Assembly (NCBI GenBank): GCA_012976225.1
Contig: JAAVVG010000002.1
Coordinates: 186,001 to 250,000, forward strand
Direction of reading: 5' to 3'
DNA length: 64,000 nt
DNA from: Golubevia sp. BC0850
Taxonomy: Eukaryota > Basidiomycota > Exobasidiomycetes > Golubeviales > Golubeviaceae
Part shown: positions 25,153-61,500 of the stretch, piece after piece
Position numbering within the stretch: position 1 is the first letter of the stretch
How the letters are laid out: every line of letters starts with the position of its first letter
Notes under the pieces: generated by a model
What the model saw: only the letters and a program-made list of their open reading frames with translations
Database searches by the model: none
What the model was told of the DNA's origin: nothing
Translations under genes and position numbers: made by a program

Positions 25153-28100
25153 CTATACTCTGCGACAGACCAGCCCAATCCCATGTATCCAACGCTCAGA
25201 ACTACCTCTAAACCCAACGATTTTGTATCCTTCTGGAGCCTCTAAGACTTTCAGTGATCCACCTTCAGAATTTCCTTGCATTCCAGTACTTTTCCCACTC
25301 TGCAGATGAATGTTTATTCCATCGATCCATGCACCAGCTCGTACCTCGACCTTTGATATCCTGTCGTTCGGTTCCAGTAGAAGTCTTGCCTTTGACGAGC
25401 CTCCCAGTGGACCAAAGGCAGCTGAAGAAGATTGTGAGGAGTGCAACTTCAACCCATCGAAAGCTGCTCCGGCATAGATCTCGATTTCTCTGACGTCTTG
25501 AGGGATTGGAGTCAGAAGAGCATCCTTTGCCTCACCGCCCGCCACTTCGCAGAGTAGGATTGGTCGATCTCCAAAGAGTGGAAAGATCACCTCTCCAGAT
25601 GTGAGATCTTGACCGACTCCCCTTGAAACTGGAAAAGGCTGAGGTACGCTCTGACCAGCGTCTCTCGAGCAAATCAAACCAATCGACGTGACCCATTGAG
25701 ACGAAGTTCCGTAAATCCCTCGAATAGAATAGCCTTCCGGAGCTTCTAGAGTAGCGAGACTACCTCCACTGAGGTTTCCATGCATTCCACTAGTGGCTCC
25801 ACTCGAGAAGTGAATGTCGATTCTGTTGGCATAGGGGAGAAAACAGGTCAGACGAAGGCAAGCATTTCGACGGCCTTCTGTTCACTCACGCGTCTATCCA
25901 CGCTCCAGCTCTAAGTAATAGCTTAGTGATGGTATCTCCAGGGCAAACTTTGAATACGAAAGGTGATCCGCCGCCGAGAGGACCGAATGCTGCAGGTGGC
26001 GATGATGAGTTTGAGTGAAATCGCAAGCCATCGAAAGCGCCTCCAGAGAAAATCTGTGAAAAGAAAAGCTTTCTAGTTATTACACTGGTGAAAATGAAGG
26101 AATTCAATTGATCAACTCGCCTCGATTGCTTTGAGATCTTGGATAGGGACAATCCACTTGCGATCACCTTCTTGTCCTGAGAACATCGTCTTGACGACGG
26201 GAGAAGAGAATTCCTTCATTTGGATCTCTTTGAGGAAACCAAAGGCTTTATAATCCTTCAATTCCGACTGTCTCATGTTGCATGCTAACGCTCTGAGCAT
26301 GACCTTTCGGTCTCCAAGAAGGGGATCGAATCCGAGAGTGGAAGCGAGGTAAGAAGGTGAGATTTGAAGACTTGAAGACGGAGGTGTCCCGTTCTCTAGT
26401 CCAGTGAATTCGATAGAAGTCATGTATCGACCATCGACTTCTACTTCGATTGCTCCGATTCCAGAGCTGCATCTTGCTGTTGGGCCATTGGCTCCAGCGC
26501 TCCAAGAGGGCGAAGTGTCGTTCCATTCTCTCCGAGCACTTGCATCGCCTGACCTGAGGAAGGGCAGGTAAGGGTCTGATGGAAGTCGACAGGTAGGATG
26601 CCATCTTGCTCGAATCGCTTGAGCTCGATGAATGTGATTCTGTCCAGAGTCGTTGGACGAGTTGATGGGAGAGATGGAAGGACACCCCGATCGAGCGCAC
26701 GAAGGGGATCTAGTCATAAACGCTCGGTTGAATTCAACATATCCGCGACTCATCAACCCAGAAGGCCAATGAGGATTGTCAAGAGCATGACCCACTGAGA
26801 GAGAAGAAACAGGAAGGACAAACATGAATTGAGCTGCCTGCTCTCCTCTCTTCTCTTGTCAGTCCCATACTCACCTTCGTGCATAAAAGCTCCACTCCCG
26901 ATGTTCAAAGTCTCCCAAGCGGTTGGACATTCGTTGAGGTCATTGACGACACACGCTTCATCAGTCCTTTCTTCATCAAGAAACGCTGGCGTTACGTATT
27001 CTAGTCTCGAAGGAGCGGCCCATCTGGGGAAGAGAAGAGAGAAGAGAATGTTTCGATCTAACCTCTGGAACTCTGGCGCGAAAAGGAAAAATTGCATCGT
27101 TCTTGAAGAGGAGAATGATCAGTCTGTTCACTCACAGCCACCCACTTCCCATGCAACCAATAGAAGTCTGACCAGCTCCACCACTTCCTACAGCAGCATG
27201 AGCTCGAAGAAGCTTCATGTTAGGATCGTAAGTAGTGTCCAAGACCAAGACGGCCACTGGAGATTGATGTAGTTCTCGAGGAACTGATGGGTTAGAGAGA
27301 GCCTCCATCGCGAATTGATGCATAGCACCTCCGTTCCGAGCACCCTTGAATTGTTGAGCATTGTTCGGATCTCTAAATTCCTTGAGAGTGTGTCTCGATT
27401 TGAGGATGTGGATCTTGGGCAGATGTTCAATTTCTCGAAGAGAGGAATTTGACTTTGGAGTAGGGTCTGAAGCTGTGTCGTCGAGGCTGAAAGTCCTGCT
27501 TCCTAGCTGATGCCTTCTCATCTGTTCACTATGAAAAGCCTGCGATGGAAGTAGGAACAGCAGACTTCTGAGTCGTTGGTTCCCTATGTCCTCTACCTTC
27601 CCTCCACCTCTCTATTCAAAGACTCACCTGCCACAGATATGCCTGTATCGCAAACCTTCTCTTGACCTCATCCAGACCTCCTTCACTCAGCACCTGCTTC
27701 CTCCAGTTGTTCGGACAATCCACAATAGGACGATCTCCAGAGTCTGAGCTCCCGAAGTTGCTCTTGAGTGGAGTCAAAACTCTCTTGAACATAGATCCAT
27801 GAGACTGCTGTTTCGATGGCTGCTGCTGACTAAGATCGACTCTTCCATTGTTTCGAAGCGAAGGAGAGTCACTTGCTACGAGGATTGCTAGGTGAAGAGG
27901 AGGGGCGTTTGAAGGTTGAAAGTTGAGATTGAAGTGGGTAGAAATTGGAGAAGACGATTCTGTTTGAAGCCAATCCAATTTGATGTCATTGTTTCCAGGA
28001 GTGAGAGATACTAATGCTTTGAAGAATCCATGATTCACCTCCCACTTCACAGGAGAGAACCCTGAGGATGAGTCAGGATGAGCAAGGAGATGAGAGAAAG

Positions 28101-28227
28101 GAGGTGGGTGGCTTCCTCCTGCTCTTCCTTCTAATATGATCAGCCTTTGGGATACAGTGGATGAGGTTTCTAGATTTTCAACCATTGGTCCTTGTTGCTG
28201 ACCCTGGTACTTGCCAGTCGGCGCCAT
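25153..28227 (-). CDS. Zinc metalloprotease with two C-terminal jacalin-like domains (PF12044 type)
   Basis: Exons 28227-27628, 27539-27136, 27023-26875, 26794-26121, 26053-25890 and 25822-25153 join in phase to 886 residues. Fungi have a conserved, poorly characterised family (yeast YIL108W type) that couples a zinc metallopeptidase to a jacalin lectin fold. The zinc site HEVGHALDNPHW is assembled across an intron (..MHE|VGH), followed by PSGLMSRGYVEFNRAF. Two jacalin-like repeats follow, each with GGAFDGL/GAAFDGL, AFGPLGG, RAGAWID and EAPEGY, and end in GIGLVCRRV. There is no signal peptide, so a cytosolic protein is likely. The intron at 26120-26054 starts with GC (GAG|GCGAGT) and is required for phase. 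The start at 28227 is the first ATG with conserved sequence after it; the long upstream extension of the frame is 5' leader. Confidence 0.88.
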
Positions 28228-28576
28228 TGTTGAAATTTTGACGTTGAGGACGAGCGGGGAGAGAAGCAGGAATGAGAGTGAGAAAGAGAACAACACTCCG
28301 AGCTGTATGGCCCGTTTCTCTCTCCCTTTGTCAACTGTCTGCTGTCTGGCGAGTTTCTTCCTTCTGAAGGGACCATGGCCAAGTAGTGATAGCTCATTTG
28401 AAGCTTCAAGGGAGACCAAAGCAACGCGACATCTCCAAGACTCAAGCCATTCTTCCTCTCTACAAATCAGATGAACTTCATTTTTTGCTTGAGAATTGTA
28501 CGTTGTCGTATATACAAATGCTGATTTTGAGAGAAAACGAGGTGACAGATAGAGCAGAGGACACAGATCTTCAACC

Positions 28577-30414
28577 TCAAGCGATCTTGACGACCATCTT
28601 TCCCTTGTTCTTTCCAGCAAAGAGACCGACCAATGCATCAGCACAACCATCGAGTCCACCCTCGTTGATAGTGAATTGTTGCTTTAGTTTTCCTTCTTTC
28701 ATGAGCTTGGACATCGCTAGAGCAGCTTCTCCGTATCTGAAAAGGGAAAGCAGGAAGGTCTGGTCAGCTGGGCATAATCTCGCATGGATATCCACATTGA
28801 TGAGATCTGCATTCCAAGAAGAACAACTTACCTGCTCTTATAATCGAAGACAATGAAACCGATTAGATAGGCTCTCATGGCGATGAGAGTTGTGTAGTTC
28901 TTCAAACCTGGCGGCTTTGACGTATTGTAATCACTAACGGCTCCACAAAGAGCAATTCTAGCTCCAATCTTTAGAGAGTTCAAGCTCTGTGAGGATAGTA
29001 GGGAAAGAGAAGTCGGTATAAGCTCAGACCATTGAAACGTTTCAAGGAAAGAGAAGTCAACGCAGCTCAGACGATGCAAACGTTTCAAGAACTTACCAAG
29101 TCCAAGAGTTCTCCTCCAACATTTTCAAAGACACAGTCAGCGTATCCAGAGTCCTTGAGGAGCTTTCTGAAGTCCTTTGCGAAACCTTCGGCTTTGTAGT
29201 CCAAAGCGTGATCAGCACCAAGGACATCCCTGACCCATTGGCATTTGTCTGCTCCACCAGCTACTGCAATGACCTTGGTATCCGGAATGCTCTTTGCGAG
29301 TTGAACAACGATGGATCCAACAGATCCTGGGAATAAAAAGCAAGCAAGATGATAGGCGGTTAGAGTTGAGGCGAGGGGAAAGGAGAGGGTAGAGAATCAA
29401 TTTTCGCTGTTCTCAGACTCACCTGCGGCACCAGTGACGACTACTACATCTCCTTTTTTGATCTTAGCAACATCGAAAAGTCCCCCTGGGAGAGTTCGGT
29501 AGAGAGGTTAGAGAGTGGGATGCCGGGAAGGTCAGAACTGAGATTAGCTGCCCTGTTACGTCTTGCAAGAGTCAACTTCCCCTCCTGCTCCAGATGAACT
29601 ACGTCATTGAATCTGAAATCTTTCCAACATGCTATCTAGAAGTCAGGTTCCGCAATGAGGGTCCAGTTCGTTCTTGGTTCCCTTCTCTTCCACCTTCCAT
29701 TCCACCCCCTTCCCTCCTCCCATCTTCTCCATCATCTTCTTCTATCCCATTATTTCCTCTCCTCCCCTCTCGATCCTCTTCTTCGATTCCATTCTCTTCT
29801 CTCGTCCCATCTCCATCACCTTCTTCAAACTCACAGTAAGCGGTTTGTCCGCTTGACCCTAAGACACCTAGATAGTCAAGATTTTCCCCTTCAGAAGGTA
29901 GCTTCTCATACTGTCCGTCCTTGACCACAGCATATTGCTGCCAGCCCAGAGTTCCAGACACTCTGTCTCCGACCTTCAAGTGCTGGGAATTGGATTTGAC
30001 GACTGAACCAACTCCACCAGCTCTCATGACTTCTCCAATCTTGACTGGTGGGAGGTAACTACGGGCATCACGGAGCCAACCTCTCATTGCTGGATCTATC
30101 TGAAGAGAAGGTGAGAAGAAGAGGTGAGGACAAGCAGATCGATAGAGCTGCTGGAACTGAAGAAAGATTCTCTGACGTAGAATTTGGACTACCACTCCTT
30201 ATTAAACTTCTTCCAGCTATCGGGAATCTAGCAGGTGTTGAACTAGCTCTTGATATGTACTTACAGAAACGTATTCAATCTTGATTAGAGCTTCACCGGA
30301 TTTCAATTCCTCTGAGATTTGAGAAGAGTTCCTTTGGAAAGTACCATCTCCGTTCAATCGTGGGTCGATGTCGTTTACTGGCCTTTCTCTGAGTGTGATC
30401 TGGTTGTTGAGCAT
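28577..30414 (-). CDS. Medium-chain reductase, NADP-dependent alkenal/enone reductase-like
   Basis: Six exons (30414-30265, 30099-29835, 29485-29423, 29326-29097, 28986-28832, 28736-28577) close in phase to 340 residues, the family length. Members of the PTGR/AtDBR branch reduce the C=C bond of alpha,beta-unsaturated aldehydes and ketones with NADPH in the cytosol. Visible blocks: YVSIDPAMRGWLRD at the substrate domain, TAYWGLFDVAKIKKGD, the nucleotide-binding VTGAAGSVGSIVVQLAK, FENVGGELLDL and CGAVSDYN. No zinc ligands of classic alcohol dehydrogenases are present, as expected for this branch. The exact substrate is unknown. Its 3' end lies 350 bp upstream of the metalloprotease start on the same strand. 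Confidence 0.92.
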
Positions 30415-54308: not shown

Positions 54309-54779
54309 TCAACAGTTGTCGATCCCCCAACCATCGTCTCCTCTCTCCCCTCCAAGAGAGGACGCAGCCTCCCAAGGCAAATCAAATCCTCCTCCGACAG
54401 CAAACTGCACCGAAGCAGAGCAACCACAGCGACAACCTCTGAGTCTGAGTACCATGTGGAGAATGCTTTGATGAATGACGTTATCTACGGGATCGAGGTG
54501 AGAGAAAGGAAAGGAGGTCAGCGAAGCTGCTCGACTCTAGAGCTCAGAGCCCATGCTGCCGATGATTCAAGACTTGGAGAAAGTTGAGTCACGGTGCCAC
54601 TCACAATCAAACATAGTCCTCCCGTCGTCCAGCTGTTTTCCAGCGTAGATCAACCTCTGTTGGTCAGACGGGATCCCTTTCTTATCTTGAATTACCTTCT
54701 TCAACACGTCGATAGTGTCACCAGGGAAAACTTCACAGGTCAAGGTCTTCCCAGTCAAAGTTTTGATAAAGATTTGCAT
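54309..54779 (-). CDS. Terminal ubiquitin unit of the array, Gly76 replaced, with 40-residue tail
   Basis: The last unit begins [12 protein letters not shown] and runs 58 codons to a GTGAGT donor at 54604. It resumes at 54484, so Tyr59 is split by the intron, exactly in phase. By my count 53 of 76 positions match ubiquitin. Kept: Leu8, Ile44, His68 and Val70 (the interaction patch), Lys6, 11, 27, 33 and 48, and the LRLRG end. Changed: Lys29 to Val, Lys63 to His, Gly76 to Cys. After LRLRGC comes a 40-residue tail rich in Cys, Gly and acids ([10 protein letters not shown]...GIDNC). Loss of the Gly-Gly end suggests it is neither cleaved by ubiquitin hydrolases nor conjugated. It may be translated as part of the upstream array; an independent start at 54779 is possible. 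The fold itself looks intact. Confidence 0.7.
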
Positions 54780-56535
54780 TGAAGAAGTTGTGGCCTGTGT
54801 GGTATCGTAGCTCAAGATCAAATCTTGAATCCGTTCGAAACCAAGTTGACCGAGTTTCTCATCATCTCTGAGCTCTTCATCTTGCAACAAAAGTGTCTGA
54901 TCTACCGCAGGGATATTAATGAGACTGTGGATTCAGCCTTTGACTGGTAAATGAAGGAGAGAGGGAGATGGATCGAAGGATTGAGCATTAAGTAGACATC
55001 TCTTATTCTCCGCTGCTCTCCTTCGCTCCTTCTTTCAAGGGAAAAGAACTCACTGATTCCGATTATATCCGGAGCCCTAGTTGAAATCCCACGCTTGATT
55101 TTGGCTCCAGTGAGGGTCACAAAGATTTCGAAGAACGAAAGGTAGACGTCGATTGTGTCCGAGTGGGAGACGTTGTACGTGCTCAGAGGAAATTGTTCTT
55201 CCAGGGACCGACCTTTCAGCCTGAGTTCTTGGTGTTTAGTAAGACATCCAGACTTTACTCTGACCATTTCCTTGACTAATCGAAATGGTCAAGGGGCATG
55301 GGGAAATGTCAGAGGAAAGTGCGAGAAAAATTCGAAGCAGAGTTGGTCGGAATCGCTATCTCCATCCATCCCAACCGCTTTCATTTCATTTCAGAATCAT
55401 ACACCTGACTCACTTTCAACGATGATAGGATAGGGGAAAACGCTTTCCCCCAAAGCCTCTCAGTTGTCATTTTGAAAGTCGACTTGAAATCCGGAAGTCG
55501 GTCCTACTATCAACTTCAGCAGAGAGCCGTCCTCGATCTCATGGTCTCCCATCAGAGTGTTCTCATATAATCGAGAATCTTGCAACATCACATGAAGCAT
55601 GCGAGGATTCAACCGGACGCCCAGGGTCGAAGACTTTAAGTTTAAGAGGTTGACCTTCAAGTTTCCAATTCTCTTGTAGATGGGTACCTTGGTTTTCAAT
55701 GTAGAAGTAAAGGAACTGAATCTATCGATTTGAGGAATCTCGACCTCTGAATCAAATTCCTTGTGTTGAAATATCATGTAGTGTGATTTCAGCCCGATGG
55801 AGTCGAGGGTTGTGTTCAGGTCCAGGAGAGAAACTCCTTTCCATAGCAAGACTCCTCTTTTGACCAAGGAGCCAAACTGACTTCTGGCTTCAAGGGCTTC
55901 ATGAACTGGAACAGTGAAATTGTCGGAAGAAGTTTCAAAGGCTGAAGTACTCGAAGGCTCAAAGGATGGGATGAAACTTACCATGACGAACTCTGGGTAT
56001 GGATGATGGACTTAAGTAGAGCTCGTGGCAGACAAATCCTTGGATCCATTCGTATAACACGACGTACCGACTTCCAGGAACCTTCCATCTATAATCAACA
56101 AGAAGTTCGCTGGCAACGTCGAGGCGAACTCCCATTTATATCCTTTCCGAAAGCAAAGTGGATTCTGGAGGAAGCTGACGTCCTCCATGAAAGAGTTGTG
56201 GAGTTTGAATCTTATGGTCTACTGAATTCAGAACTGAAAGAGAGAAAATGCGAAAGGAGCAAGGTGTAGGCAATGGGCCGGTTCACCGTTCAGTAATAGA
56301 TTCTGGTCTCTCACTCAACTATCCAAGCTCCTCAAGGCAGCTGGAAACGATCAAGATAGATCGTGCTCGAGGAAGAACTACTCACTTTCTTGAACTGTAA
56401 TGGTTTGCTTGTACGAAACATCTTGAATTCATCTTCGTCCGCAATTTTCAAGCTAAAGATGATGAGACTGGGATCTGCGACTGCAGGATCATACCGGTAG
56501 CGAAGATCGATTTTGTCAAGTGTCTCTAGTGGCAT
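54309..56535 (-). pseudogene. Tandem array of divergent ubiquitin-like units (degenerate polyubiquitin-like gene)
   Basis: Reading exons 56535-56386 (or 56382), 56340-56320, 56233-55982, 55941-55414, 55275-55054 (or 55050), 54924-54605 and 54484-54309 gives at least six ubiquitin-like units head to tail. Each shows the pattern strand, helix ending Q/H, then L.x.G..L....TL..Y.I....[76 protein letters not shown] and finally near-true ubiquitin [14 protein letters not shown]. Unit 3 ends ..TSG and unit 4 begins FQVDF with no spacer, as in polyubiquitin. Two in-frame stops break it: TAA at 56136-56138, aligned to ubiquitin Gln62 of unit 1, and TGA at 55460-55462, aligned to Gly10 of unit 4. Between them ATG 56135 opens a clean 211-residue two-exon frame. 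Either a decaying gene or one translated in pieces. Introns are only about 40-120 nt, except 220 nt. Confidence 0.65.
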
Positions 56536-58440
56536 CTGGAGGAGCAGAGAGAGAGGGAATGGCGGAGTGAGTCAGAATTGAGAAGTCGAACTCGGACAGA
56601 CGAAAGCGGAAGACAAACCGAAATGACAAGCACTCAAGATCCTTTCTCTGGCGACCACGAAAGGGACGATCAGGAATTATGAAACAATGTTCACTTTGAC
56701 TGAAAGGCTATAGTGAGAGAATAGACGAGTGAAGAAGGGGAAGAGATCTCTCTTTTTGCTTTAGCTATACCAGCTCAGCCAGCTGAAGCGTGACGAACAG
56801 CACCACCCGAACGGAACAGGCCACTTGATTCTATGGGGGTCAATTTTGATGAAGAATATCAACTTCAAAGCAGGGAATAGCTATGGAGTTGGGTCCCTTT
56901 CATCGCTCTGCAATCTGCGTTCACTCTCAGACTCAGCCGACTTTCGCTGTAGCTTTAAATCGGATGGATCGCTTCTCATCATCACGCCACACACTATCCA
57001 CAATTCAAAATGATCTTTTTCCAGACAGCTGTTGCTCTGAAGGGCAATCAGTACAGCAAGTACCGAGGCTCGTATCAACAGAGCAACACCAGAACGTGCA
57101 ATTTCAGAGATCGATAGCACCAGTAGGTCTTCCAGTCCCGAACCTACCAGGAGGAATATTTTTGGGATCTTTGACGTAACTTCAGATGATAGAAGGCGAA
57201 GGTGAAGTTCAACTACTCGGAACCCGCCCCTTGGACTCAAGTTGCAAATCGAGACTCACAGATTCAACTCAAAGAACAAGTCATGTCCTTCACATCTGTA
57301 ATTCTTGTAATTGTGGGCTTCTTCATTCCACCAGAGCTGAGAGCGTCTTCTAAAATCTCAACGAACATCTTTGCGACGTCGTCACGTAAGAAATAGTGTT
57401 TCGAATTTGGACTTGGAGCATAATTGATCTGTTTGACCAGTTGAATAATCCAAACTAGAGGACTGGAAAGCTTTCAGCTGTTTCTGGAGAGGAAAGCAGG
57501 ATAGAAGTCGAAGCTGAATTGAGGGTTTTGGCGTAAGCGTAATCCTTGAAACTTTGGAAACGAGGTTCGAGAGAGGTGCGAGTTGGACGGAAGGGGGAGA
57601 TGGAAGAACAGCAGAAAGGTGTTGTAGTGTTAGTCATTTTCTTGAAGAAAGGAAGAAGATAGTGAAAGTTTTGGAGAGAAGAATCAAGAAGGAAGATAAA
57701 CTTCAAAGTAACGAAAGGCATCACGGAGCGCAGGGAAAACGCTTGCGCAGATTGGCTTGTCTCATTCAGTCAGGTCTAGACCCGGACTTTTCGGATTGAA
57801 TATCTATCATTTTGGAATGATTGATAGATCCTCGTTAAGGTCTCAAGAGGGTCACTGTCTTGTGAGAGAGGATCAACAAGACAGTGGATTTTGCGATCAT
57901 GGCGACGCACCTTGTCATCGCTCCTCGTTTTCCAGGAGGTGAACCTTTCATCGAAGACATGTGAGGACGACTTTTCTTCGGCTTAAAATGAATCCTTGAT
58001 GTTCTTTCATGATCCAGAGGACCAGAACCTTCTGCTTTCATTCACCTCTTCGTGACCTCTTCCCCATTCCCGCGCTCTCTATCTCCTCTATCCCCAAACT
58101 GGACGGACTTATCGAAAAGAGCTACTCCGTGAAGGAAAGAAGGAATCCATTTGGTAGCAGAGATGTAATTTTCTCCTTTCAATGGGTCTCCGACTTAGAG
58201 AAAAAAAAACCCGTGACTTCTACTTGAGCCCAATCTTTGATTAACTTGACGAATGAAGGTATAACGTGTTCTGGAAGAGGGAAGGTTCTGACTTATGACT
58301 TCTGTGTTGAAGTTCTCTTTGACGACTCTCTGGTTGCCCTTTGGAAGAGTGAAGGAAGAAGGCAGTGGCGTCTCTTGATCGGATCTTAGAAGCCTTGGTT
58401 TTCTGGATGCAACTGACTCGATAAAGATCAATTTCAAGAA
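56536..58440 (-). pseudogene. Probable upstream continuation of the ubiquitin-like array, decayed
   Basis: The same strand carries further fragments with ubiquitin spacing but no continuous frame. Around 57170-57060: IPKIFLLVGSGLEDLLVLS, where GxxLED aligns to Gly47-Asp52. Around 57895-57800: ILSHKTVTLLRP followed, past a stop, by SINHSK, aligning to Thr12-Leu15, Ile23 and Lys27. Around 58170-58070: FLHGVALFDKSV, aligning to the Gly47 loop. The first unit shown at 56535 is preceded by a CT-rich acceptor (CTGCTCCTCCAG), so it had an upstream exon. I cannot build a joined model here. The plus strand shows nothing better. The region abuts the start of the PPR-like gene. Confidence 0.35.
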
Positions 58441-58554
58441 TGTAGAGAGATTGTGGCGAGAAGAGAGAAGAGGGCCAGTCAGCGATCGCTCAAAAGAGCA
58501 ACACTTTTTCGAGTCTTCTCAAGCGATCTTCTGAATCCCCTCTACCCACCTTCC

Positions 58555-61500
58555 ATGGCGACATGTTCTGCATGTCAGTCGTTTTACCGATCAACTTCAG
58601 GTGAAAGAATTTCATCAATACTGGATTCCAGCATTGGACTGGGACCTGCAAGTTTAAGGAGAATCGAAAGGAGAAGAGCAACTTCAAGTCAGATTACCAA
58701 TCCAACTTTAAGGCATAGTCTTTACAGCTGGAATAGGACGCAAACCTCAATCGAAACCTTCAATAGAAGATCTTATTCGACTCACAATTCTACTTCCAAT
58801 CATCAAACTCAGGAATTAGATTTGGACACTCCAGGTCAACTGCCTCACTCAGCAGAAGATGCTTCTGATTCTTCTCCTTCAGCTTCAGCTTCAGTTTCCT
58901 CCAGTCATCAACCTCCAATAACCGATCCATTGATCGATCCAATCTTTCTATCTTTTCAATCTGCAACCTCAACTTCTGCTTCATCAATTCAGCGCCGACA
59001 TCCATTACCCAAATCAAAATCAAAATCAAAATCTTCTTCTTCATCATCCCCATCTCTGATCCCAACTTCTACTCAAATTTCTCAATGGGAAGGTTCATCA
59101 ACTCTAAGAAACCTTTCACTCCCATCTTTTTTATCCTTCCTATCCTTCAAAAGCAAGAACAATCTCAATCTCAGCAACTCTTCCCTATCTGAATTGTCAG
59201 CTTTAAAAGCTTTATTGAATGGAGATGGAAAGACTCTTGAGACTCTGCACGATGAGGAATTAGGTAGTTTAGGGTATAGGATAGCTAGAGATGGCTGGGA
59301 TGCAGCTTTGAGCAGAGTTTTGAAGGCTCTGGAGGGAGAAGTGGTAGAAGATGGTGAGAAAGGGAAGGGTAAAGGAAAAGAAAGGCAGGTTGAACCAGAA
59401 GATCAAGAACAGGGATTCGAGTTGAATTGCTCAGAGAAGGGTTCAAGGAGAAGAGAACTGCTTATACAAGAGATTTGGAGAGGGTTGTCAGATTCAGATC
59501 CTACTTCTGGTCGAAGCAGCTCAAATTCAAGCGCCCGTACATCACCTAATACTTACTCTGAAGACATTCTATTACGAGTATTCAACCTTTTAGTTCAAGA
59601 GAAGAGTTATTCCATGTCTCAGATCAACAGGAAGAGGAGATTACTACCATTCAGAACTTCTTTAAATCAACAAGAGACCTCGAACGATCTGAACCAAAGC
59701 CTGTTCGGTTCTACTTTAACTTTCCATAAGGCTTCCGAAGTACTCAAACAATTCTTGGAGAGAAGAGAGGTTAGAGAGAGGGCGGAGCGAAGGCTTTATC
59801 TTAGTGTTCAAGAATCTGAAAACCTCAAATCGAGGGAGAAGATGTCTTTTCTGGAAGAAGAAGCCGAGAACAGATTGATCTTCGAGCTGCTCAAACATCT
59901 AGATTCCAAATCGAACTCGTTTCAGAAGAGGCGGGAACTGCTGGAAGAATTACATGGAAACCTCAATCAACCCAAAGACGTAGAGCTGGAGAAAGACATG
60001 GAAATCGAATCCAATTGGCCTTGGAGTTTTCTTCAAGGAAGTCAACTTATAAGGTTTCTGTTAGAACGGAATGCAGCATTCAATCAAACTGAGGATCTAT
60101 ATTGGAGTAACAGTCCTGAAAGCGATTCATCTGTCTTAGAGTCAGAAGCTCATTTAGATTCCCAAAATTCGGACAAAAAATCTCTTATCATTTCGATTCT
60201 ACGAAAATTAACTTCATCAACTTCAACTCCGATTTCAGCAGAATCTTTAAGACAAGGTAGAAAAGTTGGACAAGATTGGTTGAAGAATGAACTTTCAAAA
60301 CGTGATTCTAACAATCTAGAAAATGATCTACATGTCAGGAAAAGGCTGAAATTGGTTTCTTTTGGGATAAGTGTTAGAAGTGTTTTGATTAGAGGTTGTT
60401 TGAAAGAGGCGTTTAGTAAGCTGAATTCAGAGAGCAAGGAAGATCGTCAAGATTTGATGGCAAGGTATCATTTAGATGAAGCAGTGCAGTTGTTGAAAGC
60501 TCTTCTAGATCAGAGTTTGATAATCAAGACCAAGCTGGAAAACAAGTGGAAAGTTGAGAAATTAGGAATTGGAGAAATTAGTAGAGCTAATTCCTTGAAA
60601 GTTGATTTCGAACGATTCAATGAGGTTCTAAGAGATGAGGTTGCAATGGTTTGGAAGATTGTTTCTAACTTTCCAGTTTCAGTCGGTGGTGGTATCTACG
60701 ATAGAACTGTCAAGCAAGTTGGAGATCGAGCTGCAAGTGAGACCGAGTTATCTGCATTAGACGAAGAGAAGACTCTTAACCCCTTAGTCTTGATTAATGA
60801 TCTACTGCGGTATCTTCAAATTAATCATGGAGATTATCTAAAGAGTTTGTTTAGTGATGGAGTCAAGACTCCTATTTCAAGAGTAGGAGAAGATCAACAT
60901 GTTGAGCAGATGAAAGTTCTCTTGAATAACTGGATTGAGAATTGCTTTGCACTTTCGAAGAGTTTGAAATTTGAGAAGATTCGCTTTCAGAATCAAATTG
61001 GAAGTCTCGTATCTTCGTCAAGACTTCAGTCAGTGGTTCAGAAGGAGAAGAAAGACTTGGATGCCTTCTTGCTCTCTTTAGGTCCTGAGTGGGCTTTGAA
61101 CGGAGTCATGTCTATCATCAAATCTTCCTCTTCCTCACCGCAAATTTCCGAACCTCAGTACCCTCGAGGAATTTCAACTTTCGATTCCACAAAATCACTC
61201 GAATTGGAGTTATCACCCCTCAAGCTCCTGCAACCGATCCATTACATTCAGTTGGTTGAATACCTGGATAAGATGGATGGCGGCAATGGAGGAAGGGTGA
61301 GAGAATATTTGAAAGGAGATGTGATTGCCAATGGAAATCAAGAGGTAGTGAGTTGAGTTTAGATCGGGAGAACGGGAGAGAGGACATTCTGCTCCTTAAC
61401 TGACCTTTTTTACTGACGAATTGTTCTACCAATTCACTCCTGACCTTCCTTTTCACAGTACCGACCTTCTCCGGCTCTACTGTCATTGCCTCCTTATCTC

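Follow-up and report, generated by a model that had tools for sequence, protein, structure and literature searches.

The locus and its gene model

The window analysed here is the whole stretch of 64,000 nucleotides, and the array under study lies on its minus strand at 54309-56535. One side of the array is occupied by a plus-strand DUF2237 gene (Pfam 2.5e-30). Two long ORFs, also on the plus strand, lie on the other flank, and one of them matches PPR weakly. The ORF with the PPR match has 696 codons and adjoins a plus-strand ORF of 979 codons at 58417-61353, for which no Pfam match was found at E 0.01. Other genes in the window code for an HRQ1-type helicase, a GMC oxidoreductase, a carbamoyl-phosphate synthase/ATCase, and Sec66 (Pfam). 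In addition, minus-strand ORFs at 25156-28683 have Metallopep (PF12044) matches and lie beside an ORF with a jacalin-like lectin domain (PF01419). Judged by these neighbours, the DNA would be fungal.

The original prediction had described six head-to-tail ubiquitin-like units, here called A to F, on seven exons. The features of the array are collected in Table 1. Our gene model contains five introns of 75-167 nt, against the seven exons proposed; introns within units, as proposed, are present.

Table 1. Features of the array and their positions in the window
Feature	Position	Strand	Basis
Unit F, ubiquitin-like	54432..54779	-	Pfam PF00240 99.2 bits, identities, PDB ubiquitin matches
Tail of 40 residues and stop codon, after the RGC end of F	54309..54431	-	Translation of last exon
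Spacer between E and F, 8 residues	54780..54803	-	Sequence and spliced alignment
Unit E, divergent ubiquitin-like	54804..55132	-	Second half: Pfam E 0.0011 and shuffles
In-frame TGA in E, ubiquitin position 29	54933..54935	-	Natural reading
Unit D, divergent ubiquitin-like	55133..55489	-	Pfam 23.9-24.6 bits
In-frame TGA, ubiquitin position 10 if D starts at 55489	55460..55462	-	Natural reading
ATG, possible start of a stop-free D-F model with exon 4 from 55270 and exon 5 from 54901	55468..55470	-	
Unit C, 77 residues, probable ubiquitin-like domain	55490..55720	-	Shuffles; 12.3 bits within its exon
Proposed unit B, frame open and coding-like, no support for a ubiquitin relation	55757..55992	-	Codon usage backs the frame
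Proposed unit A region, ambiguous structure, ubiquitin relation unsupported	56068..56535	-	
Exons of the A region	Exon 1 56386-56535; exon 2 56068-56218, or another frame from 56233	-	

Ubiquitin-like units of the array

Unit F, the only one that keeps near-ubiquitin sequence, matched the Pfam ubiquitin family PF00240 with 99.2 bits (1.1e-28), above the curated cut-off of 25.4 bits, and 53 of its 76 residues (70%) are identical to ubiquitin. Leu8, Ile44, and Val70 are kept, while the changes include Lys29, Lys63, and Gly76, the last of which is replaced by cysteine. An intron (54485-54604) lies in codon 59 (phase 1). The unit ends with Arg-Gly-Cys and is followed by a tail of 40 residues with several cysteines and glycines (54312-54431). 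The terminal glycine is needed for ubiquitin activation. Since it is replaced and the tail runs on behind it, unit F would not be releasable or conjugable as an ordinary ubiquitin.

The cut-off of PF00240 was not reached by A to E: D scored 23.9-25.2 bits, E 15.9-19.1 bits, and C 12.3 bits at best, and A and B gave no match. Taken literally, this outcome of the ubiquitin HMM check, with all but the last unit below 25.4 bits, goes against the original prediction, but D and E are significant by E-value. In Pfam, unit D with the start of E scored 23.9 bits (E 3.6e-5), and unit D alone, after its TGA, 24.6 bits (E 2.2e-5). The 63 residues behind this TGA align without a gap with ubiquitin 11-73 (17/63 identical), and in the PDB search the gapless match covered ubiquitin 17-71 across the splice of the intron 55413-55276. 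The very low PDB E-values for D stem from chains with many ubiquitin copies; single-ubiquitin chains gave 0.003 to 0.02, and the single-domain i-Evalue was only 2.3. FAT10 chains in the PDB were also matched.

The second half of unit E alone scored 19.1 bits (E 0.0011, Pfam) from its first residue on, and its score was reached by 0 of 400 shuffles with a mixed profile and by 27 of 400 with a ubiquitin-type profile. Its 43 residues directly behind the TGA align gaplessly with ubiquitin 30-72 (10/43 identical). In the first part of E, 11 of 27 residues are shared with ubiquitin. The first 26 residues alone gave no Pfam match, and the score of the first 29 was reached by 47/400 and 81/400 shuffles with the two profiles. 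Unit C scored 12.3 bits (E 0.15) in Pfam within its exon; tested alone, it had no Pfam match, and the PDB search returned no ubiquitin match for it. With our home-made profiles, the score of C was reached by none of 400 shuffles for the mixed profile and by 6 of 400 for the ubiquitin-type profile, and 16 of its 71 residues are identical to ubiquitin. Two MAFFT alignments of the units were poor and were left out of the results, and single-sequence AlphaFold2 models were uninformative (the exon with B and C reached a mean pLDDT of 36, that with E and F one of 52). Taken together, D, E, and F are three real units of the array, and C is likely a ubiquitin-like domain.

The very low identity claimed for the units was borne out: C, D, and the second half of E share 23-27% of their residues with ubiquitin, against 70% in F, and these counts show that the near-identity of repeats is absent. 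Gly-Gly unit ends are absent as well: C ends with PTSG, D and E lack an LRGG end, and F ends with RGC. When the profiles were compared, D hardly distinguished the ubiquitin-type from the mixed profile (27.5 vs 25.6), while C (19.9 vs 15.4) and the second half of E (24.7 vs 13.8) favoured the mixed profile. The proposed descent from polyubiquitin is backed in part, in that the units passing our tests are ubiquitin-like, extremely divergent, and have escaped homogenisation, and for descent of every unit from ubiquitin, as against a generic ubiquitin-like domain, the profiles are evenly divided on D and lean to the mixed profile on C and the second half of E.

The proposed units A and B behaved like chance in the shuffles, so that of the six units claimed, F, D, and E are shown and C is likely. 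For five pieces of A and B, between 19 and 340 of 400 shuffles reached the score with the first two profiles, and for seven pieces and their joins between 6 and 152 of 200 did so with an enlarged profile; the best results, 19/400 and 6/200, come out of several tests. A and B had appeared as clear units in the alignment by eye and were dropped, as shuffling does not separate them from chance. In exon 2 of the A region (56068-56233), two overlapping frames look ubiquitin-like by eye, and neither is convincing on shuffling (19 and 249 of 400 shuffles vs 208 and 37 of 400). Codon usage in this exon (6.6 vs 1.3 bits) speaks for the frame that contains another in-frame stop, TAA at 56136-56138, as do two of three spliced alignments with the ubiquitin profile; none of our conclusions depends on this choice.

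The stretch upstream of F (about 56700-54790) was also examined as a whole by spliced alignment of the DNA with a repeating ubiquitin profile. At a low stop penalty, this region without F scored 48.1 bits with the ubiquitin-type profile and 50.8 bits with the mixed profile, whereas none of 61 other window segments exceeded 21.0 and none of the 40 dinucleotide shuffles run per setting exceeded 14.6. When stops were forbidden, the target scored 29.6 and 36.5 bits, against at most 19.9 in the controls. Lowering the stop penalty from 12 to 4 raised the target from 29.6 to 48.1 bits (ubiquitin-type, +18.5) and from 39.7 to 50.8 bits (mixed, +11.1), while the mean of the other window segments rose by 0.2 at most. 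The spacer-free joining of units proposed earlier held for the C/D and D/E joints in two of the three ubiquitin-profile alignments, the third of which stops short of C; it did not hold for E and F, which are separated by a spacer of 8 residues, and the mixed-profile runs placed the joints differently.

Introns, in-frame stops, and competing readings

The intron in D (55276-55413) lies in codon 26 (phase 1) and was used in all nine spliced-alignment runs. In the natural reading, the intron in E (54944-55053) also lies in codon 26 (phase 1); it was used in three of the nine runs, with the ubiquitin-type profile. Four of the remaining runs joined the same donor to an intron end at 54902, and two, with the mixed profile, used 55092-54938. 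We prefer 55053-54944 because with it the ubiquitin alignment of the flanking pieces is gapless up to the joint on either side. Both introns then have one base of codon 26 before them and two after, with an isoleucine codon split in each case, and GTGAGT is the donor in D, E, and F alike. A third such intron is possible in A (56385-56234, in two of six later runs), a unit that is itself unproven. An intron position common to D and E is likely, and would suggest the duplication of an intron-bearing unit.

The natural reading contains two in-frame TGA codons, in D and in E, which were overlooked in the original prediction. Of the introns of 35-400 nt that keep the frame, no acceptable one removes the first TGA: the best candidate had a site sum of -3.4, whereas six reference introns lie between 4.8 and 6.7. 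The second TGA is removable by the intron 55053-54902 with a site sum of 4.8. According to a codon-usage table trained on 11 ORFs of the window, the same frame is favoured behind the first TGA (4.9 bits in 15 codons; other frames -1.9 and -4.6) and behind the second (23.9 bits; other frames -11.6 and -8.9). From D to F there are 254 codons with no stop besides the two TGAs, whereas the off-frame rate would predict 13.3 stops (P about 2e-4). Over all seven blocks, the figure of 2 stops against 30.5 expected is flattered by the upstream exons, which were picked for openness. The stop depletion in D-F suggests that the frame was still maintained during the loss of most of the units' identity, and that the damage, if real, would be recent. 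An out-of-frame ATG overlaps the first TGA at 55460-55470. Counted from the first base of this ATG to the last base of the TGA, the overlap is 11 bases long, and such a layout would be suitable for a second reading frame downstream.

We give about an even chance to the explanation that the array is a diverged polyubiquitin-type gene that escaped homogenisation and was recently inactivated. The codon usage behind the first TGA, the better acceptor of D (1.3 vs -0.5), and the E residues that would otherwise be discarded each favour the natural reading modestly. On the other side, stop-free models exist for both D and E, and the first TGA could be the end of an upstream gene, since the nine residues before it carry no signal (231/400 and 308/400 shuffles reach their score). 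The intact donors and the coding-like codon usage would fit a living gene equally well. The main rival, though an unlikely one, is a pair of living genes, or a single mRNA that carries two overlapping frames. Its gene 1 would run from an ATG at 56535 to the first TGA, and its 277 open codons over three predicted exons would code for units A-C or unrelated sequence; as a whole it had no Pfam match up to E 10, though its last exon alone contains the 12.3-bit ubiquitin stretch. Gene 2 would start at the ATG at 55470, use exon starts 55270 and 54901, and yield a non-conjugable product of about two and a half ubiquitin-like units. It is free of stops, its D part scored 25.2 bits in Pfam, no worse than the 24.6 bits behind the TGA, and a version from an internal Met further in reached 111.6 bits in three stretches. 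The stop-free D scored slightly higher than the natural one with the mixed profile (27.5 vs 25.6) and lower with the ubiquitin-type profile (25.1 vs 27.5), and the E exon start at 54901 was chosen in four of nine runs, including the one with stops forbidden. Against gene 2, its D acceptor is the weaker one, the frame of its first exon scores worse in codon usage (-1.9 vs 4.9 bits), and it loses ubiquitin-like residues of E, the whole shortened unit scoring 15.9 bits against 19.1 for the second half.

The remaining explanations are less probable. It is quite improbable that the array is intact and divergent and that the TGAs are errors of sequencing or assembly, or come from a broken haplotype whose counterpart is intact; the disruptions are few in a long frame and the donors of D, E, and F are intact, but two separate substitution-type stops without a frameshift in D-F would be unlike typical long-read indel errors. 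Read-through or recoding of the TGAs in a living gene, giving the full chain, fits a frame that remains coding-like behind each TGA, yet we consider it very improbable. The code looks standard, given the uninterrupted long ORFs of two conserved neighbours, the HRQ1-type helicase (966 aa) and the carbamoyl-phosphate synthase/ATCase (1171 aa), and the bases after both TGAs do not seem to match the known read-through context. Reassignment of TGA was rejected in view of these long, open, conserved neighbouring ORFs. The least credible explanation is that only F is real and everything upstream is a chance resemblance. No upstream unit reaches the Pfam cut-off, A and B fail on shuffling, and the single-domain i-Evalue of D is weak, but the Pfam E-values are about 2e-5 for D and 1e-3 for E, and the 48-51 bits of the upstream region stand against a control maximum of 21.0.

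Origin of the array and comparison with known systems

A recently disabled or restructured gene is more likely than a working scaffold. The claim of a living scaffold is unproven and in part contradicted: two stops lie inside units in the natural reading, only one unit is near ubiquitin, and the terminal glycine of that unit is replaced. On the explanation we prefer, the locus would have started as a polyubiquitin-type gene whose tandem units were ubiquitin or ubiquitin-like, the codon-26 intron being present in two or more of them. This gene would have escaped homogenisation, which introns inside the units may have helped to block, and its units would have diverged for a long time while the frame was still held. 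The intact frame would then have been lost through the in-frame stops in D and E, probably recently. While the gene was alive, its product may have been a fixed or processed ubiquitin-like chain whose last unit was presumably non-conjugable, because the glycine needed for activation is replaced. If the locus is still living, which we regard as distinctly unlikely, it might produce a non-conjugable diverged ubiquitin-like chain, possibly from two overlapping frames, that acts as a fixed mimic of ubiquitin chains for ubiquitin-binding proteins.

Polyubiquitin is the textbook case of repeats that are kept alike. With a drifted tandem array that has introns in its units, one could naturally examine whether homogenisation is blocked by introns, and also how far a ubiquitin-like unit can drift under a held frame. 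Should the array be alive, a fungus would possess a fixed chain of ubiquitin-like surfaces, which would be unusual. Searches for relatives covered viral and prokaryote genome contigs. Single-exon searches of the viral contigs gave no relative (no pattern match; one stretch, unrelated), and none of the 95 stretches from a single-exon search of prokaryote genome contigs was a relative. No fungal array of this kind was found among the literature matches listed, judged by titles and abstract starts, which is weak evidence of absence.

FAT10 and ISG15 resemble the array in having more than one diverged ubiquitin-like domain in tandem, and they are intact two-domain proteins with a usable C-terminal Gly-Gly. 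Ubiquitin pseudogenes, such as human UBB pseudogene 4, are similar in being ubiquitin-derived with unclear coding status; unlike them, the array is not a retro-copy, since it appears to keep introns. In human UBC, splicing takes place at unit borders (PMC10809524), which differs from the introns inside units described here. The divergent ubiquitins of Plasmodium are also copies outside the extreme conservation of ubiquitin. There, the L40-fusion ubiquitin is changed at 15% or more of sites, the S27a-fusion ubiquitin is highly divergent, the polyubiquitin has gained a codon, and an intron within a repeat was suggested as a possible explanation of the weaker concerted evolution of the first repeats (PMC10457151). 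The introns in our array would fit this idea, without testing it. Unlike in Plasmodium, several units of one tandem row have lost most of their identity in our array.

The array resembles polyubiquitin genes of the UBI4/UBC type in its head-to-tail ubiquitin-fold units, some of them spacer-free, and in the extra residues behind the last unit. It differs from them in its low identity, an F without Gly76, a spacer before F, introns inside units, and in-frame stops in the natural reading. The array has the same domain and the same layout as polyubiquitin, but without near-identical repeats and Gly-Gly ends.
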